Positions 2,230 through 39,814 of a DNA stretch of 49,822 bases are shown here, piece by piece (the stretch's first letter is position 1; the number at the start of each line of letters is the position of its first letter). Both the position numbers and the translations under genes were made by a program. The notes under the pieces are model-generated. The model was given only the letters and a program-made list of their open reading frames with translations. It was not told the origin of the DNA and ran no database searches. This DNA is from a virus: positions 1 to 49,822 of IMG/VR virus record IMGVR_UViG_3300037502_001368. One strand, written 5' to 3'.

Positions 2230-2952
2230 ATGTCCGTAGTGTTGGGAATCGAGACGCCGAAGTTCGTACTGATCGCCTCAGACAGCCAAGCCACCACCGC
2301 CAACGGGATCTTGATGTCGTCCGGCAAGTTGATCGCCGTCGGGCCGCACGCCGTCGTCGGGCTCGTCGGTACGCTGCACTGGCAGAAGTGGGCCATGAAC
2401 GATCTCTCGGAGTCCCAGCCGGAGTACGGTGCCGACGAAGACGCGCCGCGCCCTATCGGCCTCTCGGCCCACCGTTCCGCCGACTTCCGCTGGCTCCTCG
2501 ACAACATGCCGGAGGACGTGGGAGGGGACGAGCACTGTGCCGCGATGGCGGCTACCGCGCACGGGGTCTACCTTATCGACGGCGCGGGCGTGGTGCCTGT
2601 CATGCCTCACGACTACGATGGGCGGATCAAGACCCCCGTCGCTATGGCCGCCATCGGAAGCGGGGCCGACTTCGTACTCGGGTCCGTCCTCGCCCACCTC
2701 GCGATCCTCAGCCAAGTAGAAACGGACTACGACGACCCCACGTTCCTCGTCAACGCCGTGTCGAACGCCCTTTCCACGGCCTACCGTTTCGACCCTTCGT
2801 GCTCTGGGCCGATCAACTTCCGCCTGTTCACCAAGTCCCCCGACCTCGCCGTGGGCTCGGACCCGTTCTCGGACGACGGCGCGGACGATACGTTCTCGGA
2901 CGAGGAGGACGACGACACGGACGACGACACGGACGAGGAGGACGTCCACTAG
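2230..2952 (+). CDS. Proteasome beta/HslV-like Ntn hydrolase with Ser nucleophile and acidic tail, 240 aa
   Basis: The ATG at 2230 follows GGGGGGGAGCCC. The protein matches the 20S proteasome beta/HslV fold through its length. After Met removal the first residue is Ser, and the spacing to the family's Asp17 is exact (SVVLGIETPKFVLIASD). A Lys follows at mature position 32 (SSGK, one residue shorter than the usual Lys33), then VVGLVG, a GSG at 143-145 of the precursor (AIGSGADFVLG), and DPSCSG at 188-193, equivalent to the Asp166/Ser169-Gly170 region. All catalytic parts are therefore present, with Ser replacing Thr1. The last ~30 residues are a run of Asp/Glu. No HslU-type ATPase is encoded nearby. 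It could be a free peptidase or amidase, or act in virion maturation; substrate unknown. Family assignment is confident, role is not. Confidence 0.8.
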   Translation: MSVVLGIETPKFVLIASDSQATTANGILMSSGKLIAVGPHAVVGLVGTLHWQKWAMNDLSESQPEYGADEDAPRPIGLSAHRSADFRWLLDNMPEDVGGDEHCAAMAATAHGVYLIDGAGVVPVMPHDYDGRIKTPVAMAAIGSGADFVLGSVLAHLAILSQVETDYDDPTFLVNAVSNALSTAYRFDPSCSGPINFRLFTKSPDLAVGSDPFSDDGADDTFSDEEDDDTDDDTDEEDVH

Positions 2953-3024: not shown

Positions 3025-3264
3025 CTAGCGGCCGGGGAGGGCCACGGCCTTGAGGCGGGGGCGGTTCGACGGAACGGGCTTGAGGGCGTCCTCGCCGAAG
3101 TGGAGCCGGAGGCCGGCGGGGGTTTCTACGGTGTACATGATCTTCCCGCGCCGCGCCACGGCGGGCTCGCTGACGGTGCAGTCGTACGTCCAGCCGCGCC
3201 CGTTGCGGGCGTCTACGCGGTCGCCGACGGCGAAGCGGGGGGTAAAGTCAACGGTGGTCTTCAT
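3025..3264 (-). CDS. Small SH3/KOW-like protein, 79 aa
   Basis: The ATG at 3264 follows AAAGGA on the minus strand. The sequence (FAVGDRVDARNGRGW, then short beta-strand-like segments and a basic end) looks like a small SH3-type barrel of the kind seen in KOW-like domains, often involved in RNA or protein binding. It is the last gene of the leftward cluster 3025-4849. There are no catalytic motifs. The fold suggestion is based on pattern only. Confidence 0.6.
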   Translation of the reverse strand: MKTTVDFTPRFAVGDRVDARNGRGWTYDCTVSEPAVARRGKIMYTVETPAGLRLHFGEDALKPVPSNRPRLKAVALPGR

Positions 3265-5184: not shown

Positions 5185-5301
5185 AGCCCCCGTACGGGCT
5201 TGCGCCCCGTGCTGGGACGTGGTATCGCACGCGGGCGTACGCTTGCGCGGCCGTGTGGTGGCGTGGGGCTATGGCCGTGTTATGCTTGGCTGGAGGTAAC
5301 G
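5185..5301 (+). other. Leader of the virion module with short hairpin
   Basis: This is a GC-rich non-coding leader before the portal gene. AGCCC...GGGCT at about 5187-5202 can form a short hairpin right beside the regulatory repeat. The portal ribosome-binding site TGGAGGTAAC lies at 5291-5300. An in-frame extension of the portal frame back to 5200 exists, but it is Arg/Gly-rich and has no ribosome-binding site. Confidence 0.4.
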
Positions 5302-7710
5302 ATGGTCCGTAAGCGTCTGCCGTATGTCGATGGGATCTACAACACCCTGACGGGGGTTGGTGCGGGTAAGGATACGTCCTTCGACGTTCTCGGGACGGGC
5401 GTGCTGGATTACGTCCGCCTCCGGGAGATCTATCGCCACGTCTCTTACGCCCGCCGTGCGTGTGATCTCCCGGTGGAGGACGCCACGTCCAAGGGCTACA
5501 CGATCCCTCTTGAGGACGGTGCGAACGACGCCAAGTCTGTGGCGTGGCAGAACGAGCAGCGGCGGCTCAAGTTGGATCTGAACGTTGTGCAGCAGGCGAA
5601 GTGGGCGCGGGCGTTCGGTACGGCGTACTTGCTCCTGATCACCGAAGATGGATCGACGCCGGACAAGGCGCTCGACTTGGGTAGCCTCAAGCGGATCAAT
5701 CAGGTCGTGTGTCTGACGGCGGACGAGTGTCGTGCGGATTCGTTCGGTTTGCTCTCGGGCATTGGCGAAACGTTCATGGATCCCGTGTACTACCGGACTT
5801 ACCTCCCGACGTTGGTGCGTAACGGCTTGGCGGAGATCCCTTCTGGTTGGGCCTCGGCGTTGTCGGGGACGGATAAGATCCACCACACGCGCATCATTCG
5901 CATGATCGGCCGTGAACTGACCCGTGACGAGATTCTCGGGCATTGGACGGAAGGCGACTCGATCATCCAAGCGATGTTTCGTGAACTGGCTCAGGCGGTT
6001 GGGGTGGACAACGCGGCGGCGATCCTTGCGGCCGAGATGAAGTTGGACGTGGTGAAGGTTCCGGGCCTCGACGCCGTGGCGGCGTCAGATCAACGCGAGG
6101 CTTTTGAGGAACGCATGTCCCTACTCAAGCGGGGCAAGTCGCTGCTGAACATGATCATCCTCGGTCGGGACGAGGAGTTTGAGAGCCGTCAGGCTCCTGT
6201 TTCTGGATTCAAGGATCTCGGGCAGCAGGCGAAGGACGCACTGGTGGCGGCCACGGGCATCCCGGAGCCGATCCTGTTTGGCAAGGCTACGAGCGGCATG
6301 GCCGGAGAGACGGGGATCGAGGGCGAGACGTACATGGGTCTGCTGAACACCCTGTGGCGCTTCCGCATCACGCCGGTGTACGAGCGGCTGTACACTGTGA
6401 TCCGCGCTCAGAAGGCAGGACCGTACGCCGGCAACCATAGCGTGCAGTTTGAGGTCCATCCGGTCCCGCTGCGCGAGGAGCGCCCCAAGGACGTCTGGGC
6501 ACGCCGTTTGATGCAGGCGCAGATCGACAGCATGTACTACGCCGGCGGCATGGGGCCGATCCCCAAGGAGTACTTGCAGGAGCGATTCAAGGCCGCCGGT
6601 GGGTGGACGTTCGATCTGCCTCCGTACGACCCTAGCGTCTGGCCGACGGACATGCCGGAGCCCACGGGTGGTGGCGGTGGAGAAGGCGCCCCGGAGAACC
6701 CGAACACGTCGTCGCCCAACACGCAGGGCAAGAACGCGCCGGGGCAGATGCCGCCAGATCCCCTCAAGGTGGCTACACCTAGCCTCGGTGGCGCGGCGGG
6801 CGTCGATGCGCGCCCCACGAGCACCAACACGGGCCTCAGCCGATACGATGCCGAGTTCCCGAACCCAACCTCGGAAGATCGAAAGCGGCGCTACAAGATC
6901 CCCGAAGCCGTCAAGAACAACGCCAAGAAGGCGATCGAGTGGAAGGCGGAGTACGGAGAGGCCGTGCAAGGCGGTATCGACACGGGCTGGCGGCGTGCGC
7001 GCCAACTCGCCACCGAGACGTCTATCTCCGGTCAGGACGTGATCGAGATGGCGGCGTGGTGGGCGCGGCACCGGGAGACGTCCTCTAGCGTCTCGCCGGA
7101 GTGGAAGGACGAACCTTGGCGCGACAACGGGTGGATCGCCGGCCTTATCTGGGGCGGCAACACGGCGGACGAGTGGGTGACGCAGGCGCGGAGCGCGATG
7201 GGTCGCACGGACGCGGAGCCGGTCTGTCCGATCGAGACGCAGGACATCGAGGCCAACCTCGCCAACCGCCAGACGGCGATCGACAAGGCGCATTACGGCC
7301 CCGCGAATCCGAACGAGCCGGGGGACTACTGGTCTGGTAAGGCCGATCGTATGAACGCCTCCGTCGAGGAGGTGAGCGACATGAAGTGCGGCAACTGTGC
7401 GTTCTTCAACGTCAGTGATCGCATGGTCGGGTGCATCGCCAAGGGCGTTGGCGAGGATGCGTACGACGTGATCGAGGCCGGCCAGTTGGGCTACTGCGAG
7501 GCGTTCGACTTCAAGTGCGCCGCCGAACGGACGTGTGACGCTTGGGTTGTCGGTGGTCCGATCCGCGAGGACGGTACAATGATCGACAGCGAGGTCGTGG
7601 CGGACGTTCTGTCCGATCTCCACGAGGCTGTAGCCAACGCGGAAGCACCGACGAAGGCCAGCATCATGGACATGATCCTCAAAGCCATCAGTAAGGTGAT
7701 GGGGGACTGA
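5302..7710 (+). CDS. Portal protein (DUF1073-type) with C-terminal extension and Cys-rich domain, 802 aa
   Basis: The ATG at 5302 follows GGAGGTAAC. Residues ~1-470 match phage portal proteins of the DUF1073 family: the head-vertex ring through which DNA enters and leaves. Typical segments are YARRACDLPVEDATSKG, WARAFGTAYLLL and ATGIPEPILFGKATSGMAG. A Gly/Pro/Asn-rich linker follows (about 480-540), then a helical domain (KIPEAVKNNAKKAIEWK, RARQLATETSISG, IWGGN) of the sort found as separate phage head-region proteins. A Cys-rich segment comes next (CGNCAFF ... CIAKG ... GYCEAFDFKCAAERTCDAW), resembling phage HiPIP-like cysteine motifs. The protein is much longer than usual (~450-550 aa). No terminase gene precedes it in this window. 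Confidence 0.85.
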   Translation: MVRKRLPYVDGIYNTLTGVGAGKDTSFDVLGTGVLDYVRLREIYRHVSYARRACDLPVEDATSKGYTIPLEDGANDAKSVAWQNEQRRLKLDLNVVQQAKWARAFGTAYLLLITEDGSTPDKALDLGSLKRINQVVCLTADECRADSFGLLSGIGETFMDPVYYRTYLPTLVRNGLAEIPSGWASALSGTDKIHHTRIIRMIGRELTRDEILGHWTEGDSIIQAMFRELAQAVGVDNAAAILAAEMKLDVVKVPGLDAVAASDQREAFEERMSLLKRGKSLLNMIILGRDEEFESRQAPVSGFKDLGQQAKDALVAATGIPEPILFGKATSGMAGETGIEGETYMGLLNTLWRFRITPVYERLYTVIRAQKAGPYAGNHSVQFEVHPVPLREERPKDVWARRLMQAQIDSMYYAGGMGPIPKEYLQERFKAAGGWTFDLPPYDPSVWPTDMPEPTGGGGGEGAPENPNTSSPNTQGKNAPGQMPPDPLKVATPSLGGAAGVDARPTSTNTGLSRYDAEFPNPTSEDRKRRYKIPEAVKNNAKKAIEWKAEYGEAVQGGIDTGWRRARQLATETSISGQDVIEMAAWWARHRETSSSVSPEWKDEPWRDNGWIAGLIWGGNTADEWVTQARSAMGRTDAEPVCPIETQDIEANLANRQTAIDKAHYGPANPNEPGDYWSGKADRMNASVEEVSDMKCGNCAFFNVSDRMVGCIAKGVGEDAYDVIEAGQLGYCEAFDFKCAAERTCDAWVVGGPIREDGTMIDSEVVADVLSDLHEAVANAEAPTKASIMDMILKAISKVMGD

Positions 7711-9169: not shown

Positions 9170-9227
9170 AGGATCTTGACAGCGCCCTTCGGGCGTGTTA
9201 CCTCGATCACGGAGCAACCCAAGGGAC
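9170..9227 (+). promoter_or_regulatory. Gap with TTGACA boxes and small hairpin
   Basis: A single TTGACA lies at 9176-9181, and another overlaps the end of the endolysin gene at 9144-9149 as TTGAC-AG-GTCAA, a small palindrome. GCGCCC-TTC-GGGCGT at 9182-9196 can form a 5-6 bp hairpin without a T-tract. This could be a weak promoter or attenuator ahead of the head genes. Confidence 0.35.
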
Positions 9228-10418
9228 ATGAAAATCGTCCGCGTTTACCGACAGGATCGGCTTGATGCAGATCTCTCGGCACCCGTTGAGGGTCCGGGCG
9301 GGGCGCTATTCCTTGAGGGCTTCGCGGCACGGCCGGGGATCTACCTCTACCGCAACGAGGACGGAAGTATCCGCCGGGAACTTGTCCCCCGCAGCCGACT
9401 CTGGGATGAACGTTCGATCGTGTCTCTTGGGCGCGCTCCCTTGACGTTGGAACACCCGCCCGTCTTCGTCACGGACGAGAACGTGCAACAGTTCGGCGTC
9501 GGCGACGTCGGCGACGAGGTGATCGAGGGTCCGGGCGGATTCGTCCGTGTACGCATGGCCGTGCGGACTCGGGCCGCCAAGGACGCGATCGCGTCCGGCA
9601 AGGTCCAACTGTCTCCCGGCTACATCGCGGAGATCGACGGAACGCCGGGAGTGGACCCGGAGTTTGGCGAATACGACGCCGTACAGGTTAGTCGTGAGTA
9701 CAACCATCTTGCGATCGTTGATCAAGCAAGGGGAGGCGAGGACTGTCGTGTCCGCGTTGACTCTCTCGATTGGACGATCTCGGAGGCCGACATGAAGAAG
9801 AAGGTCGATGCGGCGCACACTGAGCCGCCGATGAAGGACGCCGAGATGGCGGCCGAAGGGGAGATGCAGGCTGAGGAGCCTATGAAGGACGCCGAGATGG
9901 CGGCCGAAGGCGAGATGGCCGCTGAGGAGCCGATGAAGGACGCCGAGATGGCGGCCGAAGGCGAGATGCCTGACGATCCCTCGATGGAGGAGGAGCCCTC
10001 TATGGAGGCCCCCGGATGGTTCATGTCGTGGGCTAAGGAGTTCTCCGCAGCCATGCCGGACATGATCAAGGCCGCTATGGACGGCTACATGGCTAAGGAC
10101 GCCAAGCCGGAAGGCGAGATGGCGGCAGAGGCTAAGATGGACGGCGTTGACACCGATCGTATCGCGTGGTACAACGAGCGTAAGAGCCTAGCGGTTCGTG
10201 CGGACGCTCAAGGCGTTCGTTACAACGAGTCTGAGTCGAACGAGAAGATCGCCAACGCGATTCTCACCTCGTTCGGGATCAAGACGGACAATCTGGACGG
10301 TCGTTCTGTCGTCTCTATGGCGATCCAAATGCCCTCGACGGTTGTCAAGAAGACCGATTCCGATTCTGGTGTCGGTCAGATCGTTCCCCCAACTTCCTAC
10401 GGACCCAAGCGGGTCTGA
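9228..10418 (+). CDS. Prohead maturation protease (DUF2213-type) fused to scaffold domain, 396 aa
   Basis: I chose ATG 9228 (MKIVRVYRQDR), with AAGGGA upstream; an in-frame ATG at 9195 lacks a good site. Residues 1-~175 resemble DUF2213 phage proteases that process the capsid shell. Likely catalytic residues are H76 (LTLEHPP) and S129 (VQLSPGY), with H160 in REYNHLAIVDQARGG. The rest is highly acidic and Met/Ala/Glu-rich, including nearly three copies of a 17-residue repeat (PMKDAEMAAEGEM..EE), as expected for an internal scaffold degraded during maturation. A helical region follows. The order protease, decoration, capsid is the usual one. Confidence 0.8.
   Translation: MKIVRVYRQDRLDADLSAPVEGPGGALFLEGFAARPGIYLYRNEDGSIRRELVPRSRLWDERSIVSLGRAPLTLEHPPVFVTDENVQQFGVGDVGDEVIEGPGGFVRVRMAVRTRAAKDAIASGKVQLSPGYIAEIDGTPGVDPEFGEYDAVQVSREYNHLAIVDQARGGEDCRVRVDSLDWTISEADMKKKVDAAHTEPPMKDAEMAAEGEMQAEEPMKDAEMAAEGEMAAEEPMKDAEMAAEGEMPDDPSMEEEPSMEAPGWFMSWAKEFSAAMPDMIKAAMDGYMAKDAKPEGEMAAEAKMDGVDTDRIAWYNERKSLAVRADAQGVRYNESESNEKIANAILTSFGIKTDNLDGRSVVSMAIQMPSTVVKKTDSDSGVGQIVPPTSYGPKRV
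9828..9968 (+). repeat. 51-bp tandem repeat inside protease-scaffold gene
   Basis: Units start at 9828, 9879 and 9930 (the third is partial). Each encodes 17 residues beginning PMKDAEMAAEGEM. The copies differ by only a few bases, so the expansion looks recent, and copy number could vary between related phages. Confidence 0.85.
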
Positions 10419-35760: not shown

Positions 35761-37446
35761 TCAGAGCCAAGTACCGTACCTGAGACGCTGGCGTTGTACG
35801 CCGGTTTCTTCAAGGTACTTCGCCGCCTTGCGGAGTTTGTGGAGCCGCACGCGCATCGCCCACGTCTGCTCCGGGAAGTCAACGTACACGGCATCCGCCT
35901 GCTGACCGGGGCGGTGGGTACGGGCGATCAACTGCTCGGCCAGTTGCGGTCCTTCCGGCGGCTCGATCAGGATGTTGTCGGCCCATGCTTGTAGGTTCTT
36001 GCCTGTCCCGTGCGCGTGGATGGATAGGGCGGCGTGCGGAACAGACGGCGCGGGCTCGTTCGTACCTGCCCCGTACACGGGGATGCCACGGGCGCTCAGG
36101 GCCTCCTCGATCGCCTTGGACGAGTACCAGAGCAAGCACCTATCTCGACTTTGCGCCATCTCAATGGCGTTCTCGATCACACCGTAGTCTAGCCAGATCG
36201 TCTCTCTGGACACGGAAACTTGTGGGCCGATCTCCTCCCACCGCTGCCACGCCCGGATCGTGTCTCGGTGCGCCCGCCCGTCCTTGCACGCCTCGATCAC
36301 AAGACTCGGCGAATCAAGTCCAACATACCCCGTGATGTACAGAAGTTGGCGGCGGAGGGCGCGGCCCCACTCCAGACGGGCGGCCAGCCACTCCTCGATG
36401 CTCGGACCGCCCTCGATGGCCGAATAGATCGGGCGGTAGTAGAAGCCGCACGACAACGTGATCGCGTGACGGTGCAAGTCCGACGCGGCCACGATCTCCG
36501 TACCGTCGGGCAACACCCACTCCTCCTTGAGACGCTTGAGCGCGTGCGTCACGGCCGCGTTGACCGGGGGGCGCCACGCTCGGAAGTAGAGCGAGGTGCC
36601 GACGCCGGCGTCCGCCGTGGCCACGACCCCCGGCACCGTGATCCTTCGCGCTGTATAGCCCCTACGGACGCGCTCGACTCCAGACGTATCTACGGCGCCC
36701 GACGCCGCCGCAAACGGCCTAGAGGGCCGTTCTGAGGGTTCTGGCGCGGGGGCTAGGGCCGCCAACGGGGCGAGGTACTTGATCGCCCCCGGAGCCGGCT
36801 CAGCGTCGTAGTCCAGCACGGTGGCCCACGTCTCCAGCGTGTGTCGATCTGTCGGAAGGAAACTGTACTCGCGGAGCACCATCTCGGAGAGATGCGCCAT
36901 GCGTTTGATCTGCTTCCCACTCAACGTGCCGCTGAGCACCACAAGGCGGGTGTCCGGGAATCCGACCATATAGTCGATCAGTCGGCGCGTCCGTGCTGAG
37001 TTAGGCTCCGCGAACTGATGCGCCTCGTCGATCACGATAAGGCGAGGCATCGCTTTTCGTAGATCTTCGCTGTGTTTCGGATGCGACAAGGTGCCGCTGG
37101 ACATGATCTTCGGCCAGTATCCCTCTGCTTCGGGGAACTTATGCTTCCAAGCGGCTAGATCCCTATGGGTCTTCGTCACTAGATCTGGCGGAACGATAAG
37201 GAGGCACTTGTCTCCGGGGATGCGTAGAACGTACCCCGCCAACAGTGAAGGGATCGTCTTACCGTGCCCAGCCCCGATCTCCCCGAACAACCCCTTGGGG
37301 GCCTCCATCGACTCCAGTTCCGCGAGGGCTTCGATCTGGATTGCACGCAACCGCCCCGCCAGCACGCTAGTGCGCTCCGGCAGAGGGCGCCCCTCCCACG
37401 ATCTGCGCGTCGGAAGGGCGAGGATGCGCGTCAGTTCACGCCCCAT
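35761..37446 (-). CDS. SNF2/SF2-type helicase, 561 aa
   Basis: ATG 37446 overlaps the primase-helicase stop by 11 bp. SF2 motifs: motif I EIGAGHGKT (57-64 region), DEAH box at 140-143 (VIDEAHQF), motif III LSGTLSG (~171-177) and motif VI IARTHRPGQQA near residue 510, the last typical of SNF2-like ATPases. A Pro/Ala-rich stretch (~232-260) separates the lobes. Such proteins translocate on DNA duplex and assist replication or recombination; they are common in phage replication modules beside primase-helicases. Confidence 0.85.
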   Translation of the reverse strand: MGRELTRILALPTRRSWEGRPLPERTSVLAGRLRAIQIEALAELESMEAPKGLFGEIGAGHGKTIPSLLAGYVLRIPGDKCLLIVPPDLVTKTHRDLAAWKHKFPEAEGYWPKIMSSGTLSHPKHSEDLRKAMPRLIVIDEAHQFAEPNSARTRRLIDYMVGFPDTRLVVLSGTLSGKQIKRMAHLSEMVLREYSFLPTDRHTLETWATVLDYDAEPAPGAIKYLAPLAALAPAPEPSERPSRPFAAASGAVDTSGVERVRRGYTARRITVPGVVATADAGVGTSLYFRAWRPPVNAAVTHALKRLKEEWVLPDGTEIVAASDLHRHAITLSCGFYYRPIYSAIEGGPSIEEWLAARLEWGRALRRQLLYITGYVGLDSPSLVIEACKDGRAHRDTIRAWQRWEEIGPQVSVSRETIWLDYGVIENAIEMAQSRDRCLLWYSSKAIEEALSARGIPVYGAGTNEPAPSVPHAALSIHAHGTGKNLQAWADNILIEPPEGPQLAEQLIARTHRPGQQADAVYVDFPEQTWAMRVRLHKLRKAAKYLEETGVQRQRLRYGTWL

Positions 37447-39814
37447 TGAGGAGCGCCTTGATCGCTTCGTAGGTCTTCTCGCTGCGATACGCTACGCGGG
37501 GCATATCGGAGATGATCGACAACGGAATCACGCTCCACGCCGTATTCTCGGCCCCGACCTCGGAGTCCTCAAGGCACACGGAGCGCAGCGTAGCACGGGC
37601 ATCTTGTGGATCTACGCCTTCCGCCTTGAGGCTGGAGCGCACGCCGGGATCTGACAGGAACGTAACGACGCGCACCAAGATCTGCTTCGTCTCTTGATCG
37701 AAGTAGGCCACGGAATCTTTGCGGTTCATGGCGATCTTGTCCGCGAGGAGCGCGAGGACGGCGCCGACGCTTCCCGAATAGAGCGCCCGATAGTGCCACG
37801 CCGTAGGAGTCCCCTCGACGCGGAAGCGGCTACCACGGGACAGGGGGACGTGGTTCTCGGAGATCCACGCGATATGCTCGCACAGGCGCCCCGGTTCTCC
37901 CGACGTCTTGAGCACCCAATCAGCGGTGTAGTCCCGACCACCGCGCTTACGGAGGAGATCAGCCGCAGCGTTGCCAACCCGGATGTAGCGGACGCGCTGT
38001 GTGATGGCTTCGACGTCATAGATCGTGCGCACGTCGTCAAGGCGCAGGGCGTCCTCGTTGTTGGCCGTGATCACCATGCGAAGGTTCCCGCGCAGCGTCT
38101 CGGCGTCCACGCCCTTACGCTCCACCTTATGCGTACTGTTGCCGACGAGCGATCGAAACTTGCCCGTGGCCGACTCGTTGCTCACCTCGTCGAGCCAGAT
38201 CAAGGGAGAGTTGCGGAGACGGCCGTTGAATCGGCTAACGGCCTCGTCGAACTCGACGTAGGTGCCACTGAGGAACTGGGCGAGCGCCTGAGCGATCATG
38301 GACTTGCCGGCGCTCGGAACGCCCGACAGGTAGAGCGCGCACAGAGGTTGATCGAACTTGAGGGCGAAGTGCAGCCACGAGAGGAGCCCTTCGCGATCTG
38401 CGCCAGCCAAGGCAGACAACCACTCGTTGACATCCTCGTGGTACGCCGGCGCGACCTTGACCCGCTTGCCGACGGGCAGGACCAGAGATCGGGAGCGGTG
38501 CGTGGCCTCGACGCGAGGGGCCTCGACGGTGAGATCGAGAATCACCTCGTCCACGAACGTTCCGTGGCTATTGAGTAGGTTCAACGTCGTAGATGCGCGG
38601 ATGCCGTACACCGCACCCCACAGGTCGATGAAGGCCGCCTTGTACGAATCGTCGTTACCGATGGGCTCGGTGTAGGTTCTACGCCCAGAATCCCAGATGT
38701 AGCGGGATCGGCCCCCGGTGTAGACGGATAGCGGGATCGGTCCCCACTCCGTCATTACCGTCTTCTGCGGCAGCACGTCGTGCGCGTCGTCGTCGGCGTA
38801 CTCTTGCGCCTCTACGATCCTCGACACCATGCTCCAAAGTTCGCCCACGGCCGTCTCCGGCGCGGTGTTGCCCTTGGTTGCGGCGGTAGCCGCCCGGAAC
38901 ATGGAGAACACGGCCAGCGGGGACGGGGACTCGCCCCGGACCTCGGAGTACACATCCACGAAGGCGTTGATCGCCCGGAAGGTGGTGCTATTGCGTTGCC
39001 CCTGAGCGTAGAACGGCTCGCCGGCGCGCAACTTCCCGATAAGCCCGTTCCAGCCTGCGCGGGCCATAGGATCTGCGAACTCCTTGACCACCTCGTCCCA
39101 ATCACTGTCGGAGATCTGTACGGCATCCGGGACTCCCGGAAGCGTGGCGGGGATAAGGGCTTCTCCGGGCGCGATGGTGGCGTCCGTCACGTTATTGATC
39201 CCACACTGGAGAGGTTGCCAGTGCTCCGGGATATGCAGGACAAACGTCGGATCTTGCCACGTCGGCGTGCCGTCTCGGATAACCTTGGGCATACGGAAAA
39301 GGCGCGTCCACTCCACCGTCGTTTCGTCCACCTCGACGTCCACGGAAGCCGTGGCGATCTTGGTGCGGACGTCCTGCACGATGGGGTTGGCAACCTGTCC
39401 GTACGCCACGGCCGGGATCGGGCGGGGCAGCATGAACACGATACGCACGCCACGGCGCGTAGTGAAGATCGCCGCGTTCGGGAACAGACGAGCCAGCAAC
39501 GAAACGTTGCGGATCGCCGTATCCGCGTCAGGCCACTCGCTGTGTTGGTGGCGATCAAGATCGACGAAGACGACCACCATCTTGAGCCGGTTCGCCACGT
39601 CTTCCATGCGAAGCACGTCCTTAGCCAGACGCGCACAGACGTCCTCCCCCTCGATCAAGTACGCCGCCCCGTGGGCATCGGTCGTGTACTCCATCTCCAA
39701 CGCGACACGGACATCAGTCAACGGGCTGATCTCCGTTGCGTCCGTAACCTCGGTGTCCCCACGCTTGCCCCATGCTGGCACAAACCGCGTACTGAAAACA
39801 GGGATCATAGCCAT
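37436..39814 (-). CDS. Primase-helicase (AEP/D5-like primase + SF3 helicase), 792 aa
   Basis: ATG 39814 follows GAGGAGGACAAAT. The N-terminal primase-like part has a D-x-D motif at 85/87 (VVFVDLDRH) and TTRRGVRIVFMLPRP. The C-terminal SF3 helicase shows Walker A GVPSAGKS near residue 500, Walker B LIWLDEVS and motif C LRMVITANNED. It would unwind the fork and make primers with the family A polymerase. The set lacks a DnaB-type helicase, so this is the likely replicative helicase. Next to the SNF2 helicase gene with an overlap, suggesting coupled translation. Confidence 0.85.
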   Translation of the reverse strand: MAMIPVFSTRFVPAWGKRGDTEVTDATEISPLTDVRVALEMEYTTDAHGAAYLIEGEDVCARLAKDVLRMEDVANRLKMVVVFVDLDRHQHSEWPDADTAIRNVSLLARLFPNAAIFTTRRGVRIVFMLPRPIPAVAYGQVANPIVQDVRTKIATASVDVEVDETTVEWTRLFRMPKVIRDGTPTWQDPTFVLHIPEHWQPLQCGINNVTDATIAPGEALIPATLPGVPDAVQISDSDWDEVVKEFADPMARAGWNGLIGKLRAGEPFYAQGQRNSTTFRAINAFVDVYSEVRGESPSPLAVFSMFRAATAATKGNTAPETAVGELWSMVSRIVEAQEYADDDAHDVLPQKTVMTEWGPIPLSVYTGGRSRYIWDSGRRTYTEPIGNDDSYKAAFIDLWGAVYGIRASTTLNLLNSHGTFVDEVILDLTVEAPRVEATHRSRSLVLPVGKRVKVAPAYHEDVNEWLSALAGADREGLLSWLHFALKFDQPLCALYLSGVPSAGKSMIAQALAQFLSGTYVEFDEAVSRFNGRLRNSPLIWLDEVSNESATGKFRSLVGNSTHKVERKGVDAETLRGNLRMVITANNEDALRLDDVRTIYDVEAITQRVRYIRVGNAAADLLRKRGGRDYTADWVLKTSGEPGRLCEHIAWISENHVPLSRGSRFRVEGTPTAWHYRALYSGSVGAVLALLADKIAMNRKDSVAYFDQETKQILVRVVTFLSDPGVRSSLKAEGVDPQDARATLRSVCLEDSEVGAENTAWSVIPLSIISDMPRVAYRSEKTYEAIKALLNGA

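Follow-up and report, generated by a model that had tools for sequence, protein, structure and literature searches.

A divergent Ser1 variant of the proteasome-like Ntn hydrolases encoded in a phage genome fragment

The window (the whole stretch of DNA analysed here, a virus record of 49.8 kb) carries myovirus genes for portal, endolysin, head-maturation protease (9195–10418, phrog_530), major head protein, tail sheath and tape measure, together with genes for an exonuclease, a DNA polymerase, a thymidylate synthase and helicases. Inside the head-maturation protease gene, self-matches delimit internal near-repeats of ~50–100 bases (9820–9969). We identified a solitary gene for a 240-aa protein, P0001, which is bordered by a terminator-like hairpin on one side and by a small convergent open reading frame (3025–3264) on the other. 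The features of the locus are as follows, with residues of P0001 numbered as in the mature protein (Met removed).

1938–1969, + strand: terminator-like hairpin between the P0001 gene and the upstream gene (weak basis)
2223–2226, + strand: probable ribosome-binding site GGAG, purine-rich, read directly from the sequence
2230–2952, + strand: gene for P0001, predicted proteasome-like Ntn hydrolase of 240 aa (open reading frame; phrog_1040, E = 2e-9; copy on the twin contig 99% identical)
2233–2235, + strand: codon TCC of Ser1, predicted nucleophile after Met removal (among 39 relatives, this column holds 37 Thr and 2 Ser)
2281–2283, + strand: codon of Asp17 (D in 39/39 relatives)
2326–2328, + strand: codon of Lys32, equivalent to Lys33 (K in 39/39 relatives)
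2368–2370, + strand: codon of Gly46, equivalent to the oxyanion Gly47 (G in 37/39 relatives)
2395–2457, + strand: acidic segment past the first helix, residues 56–76, with six D/E and one K/R, at the pore-loop position
2656–2664, + strand: GSG motif, residues 142–144, Ser129 region (first Gly in 38/39 and last Gly in 39/39 relatives)
2791–2808, + strand: DPSCSG motif, residues 187–192, Asp166 region, with Asp187 (Asp in 32/39 relatives)
2860–2949, + strand: acidic C-terminal tail, predicted to be disordered (18 D/E per 30 residues; pLDDT ~30)
5200–7710, + strand: portal protein, the downstream landmark (phrog_146, 6.9e-55; listed open reading frame, true start perhaps further in)

Upstream of the start codon the frame stays open for only ~12 codons, which hold no other start codon, and Met-Ser is therefore likely the real N-terminus, without a propeptide. 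The G+C content of the gene at the three codon positions (0.65/0.44/0.88) matches that of the phage structural genes. The region holds three terminator-like hairpins, as many as shuffled sequences have on average and thus no excess over chance. GC-rich simple repeats with GGCCCCC units occupy positions 1–80 of the window, and GC-rich units of the CCGTCC type follow the P0001 gene (2953–3030) in a stretch whose length differs in the twin contig.

This twin contig, IMGVR_UViG_3300035670_000552 (L051), carries the P0001 gene nearly unchanged; the two proteins differ solely in the acidic tail, where the twin has one residue fewer. Upstream of position ~2000 the two records diverge by ~20%, which places the P0001 gene in the conserved block that also holds the portal and head genes. 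The gene for the terminase large subunit is missing from the window and was found on the twin (L051:13713–15341, phrog_38) within a stretch of ~9.6 kb (L051:7244–16819) that sits between the right (49822) and left ends of the window, which is therefore an incomplete genome. No AAA_2 domain, as expected of an HslU-type partner, was detected in the window or the twin record, both of which are fragments, and neither record has a WhiB gene. The statement in the earlier note that a partner ATPase is absent thus holds for AAA_2 in these two records; it is tempered by their fragmentary nature, by a single weak, sub-threshold AAA match inside the primase/helicase open reading frame (37436–39814, window and twin) and by the possible use of host unfoldases.

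Fuchs et al. 2021 defined 22 new proteasome-like groups, of which PPH and AAH are found in many phages and CPH, PMI-4 and DAH in some, with Thr1/Ser1, Asp17, Lys33 and Gly47 as the catalytic residues of the family (PMC8665760). This published and widespread phage family (PHROG 1040) was overlooked in the earlier note, as were Gly46 and the precedents for Ser1. Sequence profiles, the conservation of the catalytic columns and a medium-confidence fold support the note's central proposal of a proteasome-like Ntn hydrolase with Ser1. In a search of an HMM library, residues 13–198 of P0001 matched phrog_1040 ('peptidase HslV family'), and the match to Pfam Proteasome PF00227 (E = 2.3e-4) fell slightly short of the curated cut-off. 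Scans for the N-terminal motif at the DNA level yielded at least 119 viral contigs in IMG/VR and seven matches in genome contigs, six of them Thr1 proteasome-like proteins; the same pattern shifted by one base gave four viral matches, none related. P0001 aligned end-to-end with a profile of 17 viral sequences in hhalign (P 3.9e-7, z 15.7 against shuffles). The first 25 residues had served as search key for the viral set and were hence dropped from both sides in a C-terminal test, which still gave z 8.5 (P 1e-4). Past residue 25, the comparison with the PPH phage proteins reached z 10.2 (P 6e-6), and that with WPH gave z 14.8 end-to-end and 4.6 without the N-terminus, the C-terminal helix of WPH being replaced by the acidic tail. 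Matches to archaeal proteasome beta (z 1.9 at full length, 1.0 in the C-terminal test) and HslV (z 1.5 and 1.1) were not significant. P0001 hence resembles side branches of the family from prokaryotes and phages rather than HslV or the beta subunit themselves, and the label 'HslV-type' of the earlier note is right at the family level only.

Other searches returned little. Searches with tblastn and BLAST against annotated phages and plasmids gave no useful relative even at E = 10, scans for peptide patterns in viral and genome contigs recovered the twin contig alone, and a PDB sequence search with P0001 returned unrelated matches only, mainly eS19. A scan of the viral contigs with the WPH profile found none. 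In a phylogenetic tree P0001 grouped with WPH against the phage set with 98% support on very long branches; as this grouping may reflect long-branch attraction, we do not rely on it.

Conservation was assessed on an alignment of 40 sequences, i.e. P0001 and 39 viral, PPH and WPH-like relatives. In precursor numbering, as used in the earlier note for this comparison, Asp18 and Lys33 are invariant (39/39). Thr is the nucleophile in 37 relatives; the other two, from Caulobacter phage CcrC3 (L020) and from the viral contig L058, have Ser. Among the sequences aligned, Ser1 is thus rare in the family but has precedents and is not unique. The note's placement of Ser1, of Asp17 at the exact family spacing, of Lys32 and of GSG was borne out, and Gly46 lies 14 residues past Lys32, the same step as from Lys33 to Gly47 in the proteasome. 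Its assignment of DPSCSG to Asp166/Ser169 is correct for the Asp; in a gapless alignment position 169 falls on Cys with a Ser on either side, off by one. Where it counted ~30 acidic residues at the C-terminus, the final 30 positions hold 18 D/E and the final 40 hold 19. The acidic tail is absent from every relative examined, and P0001 has further extra segments after helix 1, at about residues 121–131 and between helices 3 and 4. Judged by its sequence, P0001 is set apart by the rare Ser1, loop insertions of its own, the acidic tail and a single BLAST-detectable relative, the twin contig.

AlphaFold2 run on the single sequence gave a pLDDT of 37 and a model without any Ntn match. With six remote homologues in the alignment, one of five models was good (pLDDT 62, pTM 0.64, core mostly 64–88) and had the Ntn-type order of strands and helices, which is the outcome by which the earlier note had wanted its reading judged. 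Foldseek matched this model with probability 1.00 to BPH (5ovs, 1.4e-9), HslV (4ho7/1m4y) and proteasome beta, and also to viral HslV-like models. The alignment was made of real family members, so the model shows compatibility with the Ntn fold and is not independent proof. With medium confidence, P0001 is predicted to adopt the alpha-beta-beta-alpha Ntn fold, in which the insertion between helices 3 and 4 could be an obstacle to double-ring contacts. The acidic segment at residues 56–76 lies at the pore-loop position of the model, and a role as pore loop is suggested by analogy with PMC8665760.

The viral relatives are mostly 170–205 aa long (e.g. MTTLVGIQGPDFVVMAADSQITDND...) and have Thr at position 1 in 78 of the 80 listed; all four tested besides PPH matched phrog_1040. 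Downstream of the homologue, a large related group carries genes for a Cas4/RecB-like nuclease, WhiB and a DnaB-like helicase. The WhiB genes were confirmed by Pfam in three contigs (L055, L060, L094) and point to actinobacterial hosts for those viral contigs. In another group the homologue lies directly downstream of the portal gene within the block of head genes (L061:1490–3759, L076:52–1809, L078:7789–9696). A search for homologues of the L061 protein in 240 genomes of Alphaproteobacteria (the class of G007), run without a positive control, found none. One viral open reading frame (L108:11894–12493) has a proteasome-like start, MSCIVGIKTTEGVVLAADS, followed by unrelated cysteine-rich basic sequence, possibly a fusion or an assembly join. 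Gp30 of Gordonia phage Nymphadora (L054:27667–28536, 'hypothetical protein'; MTLVQ...SDRRLT...), found via the length of its BFVD fold match, looks like a distant member of the proteasome-like proteins and has copies of 99.7% identity in nine Gordonia phage records; it was rejected as a sequence relative of P0001, the similarity being no higher than that of shuffles.

Taken together, we estimate at about 0.72 the probability that P0001 is a divergent phage member of the proteasome-like Ntn hydrolases, near PPH, AAH and WPH, that works in the following way. Host methionine aminopeptidase would remove Met and expose Ser1, which would then attack an amide bond in partnership with Lys32 and Asp17, Gly46 serving as oxyanion donor. 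Lacking a propeptide and any recognisable unfoldase encoded by the phage, P0001 would most likely act on peptides or unfolded protein without using ATP. It may perhaps form a BPH-like ring whose gate would be the acidic loop; the acidic tail would then lie outside the ring as a putative docking or solubility element. P0001 is most likely an ATPase-independent threonine/serine-type peptidase. Going further, it might be a phage 'mini-proteasome', a stand-alone serine-type enzyme, distinct from its relatives in its nucleophile and steered by its acidic tail, that processes or degrades specific host or phage proteins without an ATPase, which we consider rather improbable.

The main rival on gene position is a role in virion morphogenesis, in which P0001 would be made with the late genes and would either trim or be packaged with a structural protein close to the portal vertex. 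The gene lies between terminase (on the twin) and portal in a stretch nearly identical in both phages, and the portal-adjacent homologues in the other viral group fit such a role as well. The phage already has a separate head-maturation protease, however, which weakens this explanation; the portal gene is 2.2 kb away with the convergent open reading frame in between, and the largest related group has nuclease, WhiB and helicase genes as its neighbours, which leaves a virion role unlikely, albeit with about one chance in five. The substrate could instead be a small-molecule amide, or the reaction a peptide ligation as in connectase, a proteasome-like protein that acts as a ligase (PMC8665760). 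The Ntn fold is common to many amidohydrolases and P0001 has its own loop insertions, but the profiles and folds that it matches belong to peptidase-type members and no metabolic gene partner was seen, and we hold such non-proteolytic chemistry to be distinctly improbable.

Loss of activity is given the same low likelihood as non-proteolytic chemistry. In this fold threonine usually makes a better nucleophile than serine, and Ser can stand in for Thr at reduced activity in this family, as in the T1S mutants of Thermoplasma and yeast and in Bacillus subtilis CodW/HslV. As Ser1 is, in addition, rare among the relatives, the activity of P0001 could be weak or lost, and a homologue whose Thr1 has drifted to Ser might bind, scaffold-like, instead of cutting. 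Against this, Asp17, Lys32 and Gly46 are all retained, CcrC3 and L058 share Ser1, and Ser1 is an accepted nucleophile of the family (PMC8665760). A chance resemblance of motifs, with P0001 no true relative of the proteasome, is largely refuted: the missing BLAST-level relatives in phages and plasmids, the sub-threshold Pfam match and the failure of single-sequence folding agree with it, but the phrog_1040 match, the profile scores (z 15.7 and 8.5) and the invariant catalytic columns beyond the search motif reduce it to a few chances in a hundred.

P0001 is a real, divergent Ser1 variant of a family whose phage-encoded members are already published and common. No function was found for the new proteasome-like groups (PMC8665760), and none is recorded for the phage homologues in the literature searched; P0001 adds natural variation to this family. 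Among proteins in which Thr1 is nearly fixed, a member that has Ser1 and a tail of its own offers a natural test of the effect of the nucleophile on this fold. The frequency of such genes in WhiB-carrying phages makes the question of function approachable with isolated phages. The 2021 survey reported no Actinobacteria-specific phage with AAH (PMC8665760), a gap that the WhiB-linked viral set may fill if its members are AAH.

Among the known systems, HslV differs from P0001 in that its profile match is not significant and HslU is absent from both phage records. BPH, HslV and proteasome beta nevertheless appear to share the catalytic layout and, as far as the model goes, the predicted fold. In BPH the pore loop is long and acidic and no unfoldase is known (PMC8665760), as proposed for P0001 with its acidic loop at the pore position; more generally, no AAA+ partners were found to co-occur with these groups (PMC8665760). 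The PPH proteins, for example those of Klebsiella phage FKP3 and Caulobacter phage CcrC3, are, like P0001, phage-encoded, without a propeptide or known AAA+ partner and equipped with the same catalytic columns; the central GSG region is the best match, and CcrC3 PPH shares Ser1. PPH is, however, only ~140 aa long, with a shorter stretch ahead of Asp17 and no helix 2, whereas P0001 has 240 aa, the full 17-residue spacing, the acidic tail and an extra segment at the place of helix 2. WPH (probable members L026, L031 and L032) is cellular, has Thr1 and is longer in its C-terminal part, yet its motifs DPNCGG and IGSGAAY are similar to DPSCSG and IGSGADF in P0001. The viral set of 170–205 aa, which is probably the AAH type of PMC8665760, differs in its nearly universal Thr1, shorter loops and lack of an acidic tail, and shares with P0001 the full-length N-terminal layout, the GSGxxFxLG motif and a profile alignment from end to end.
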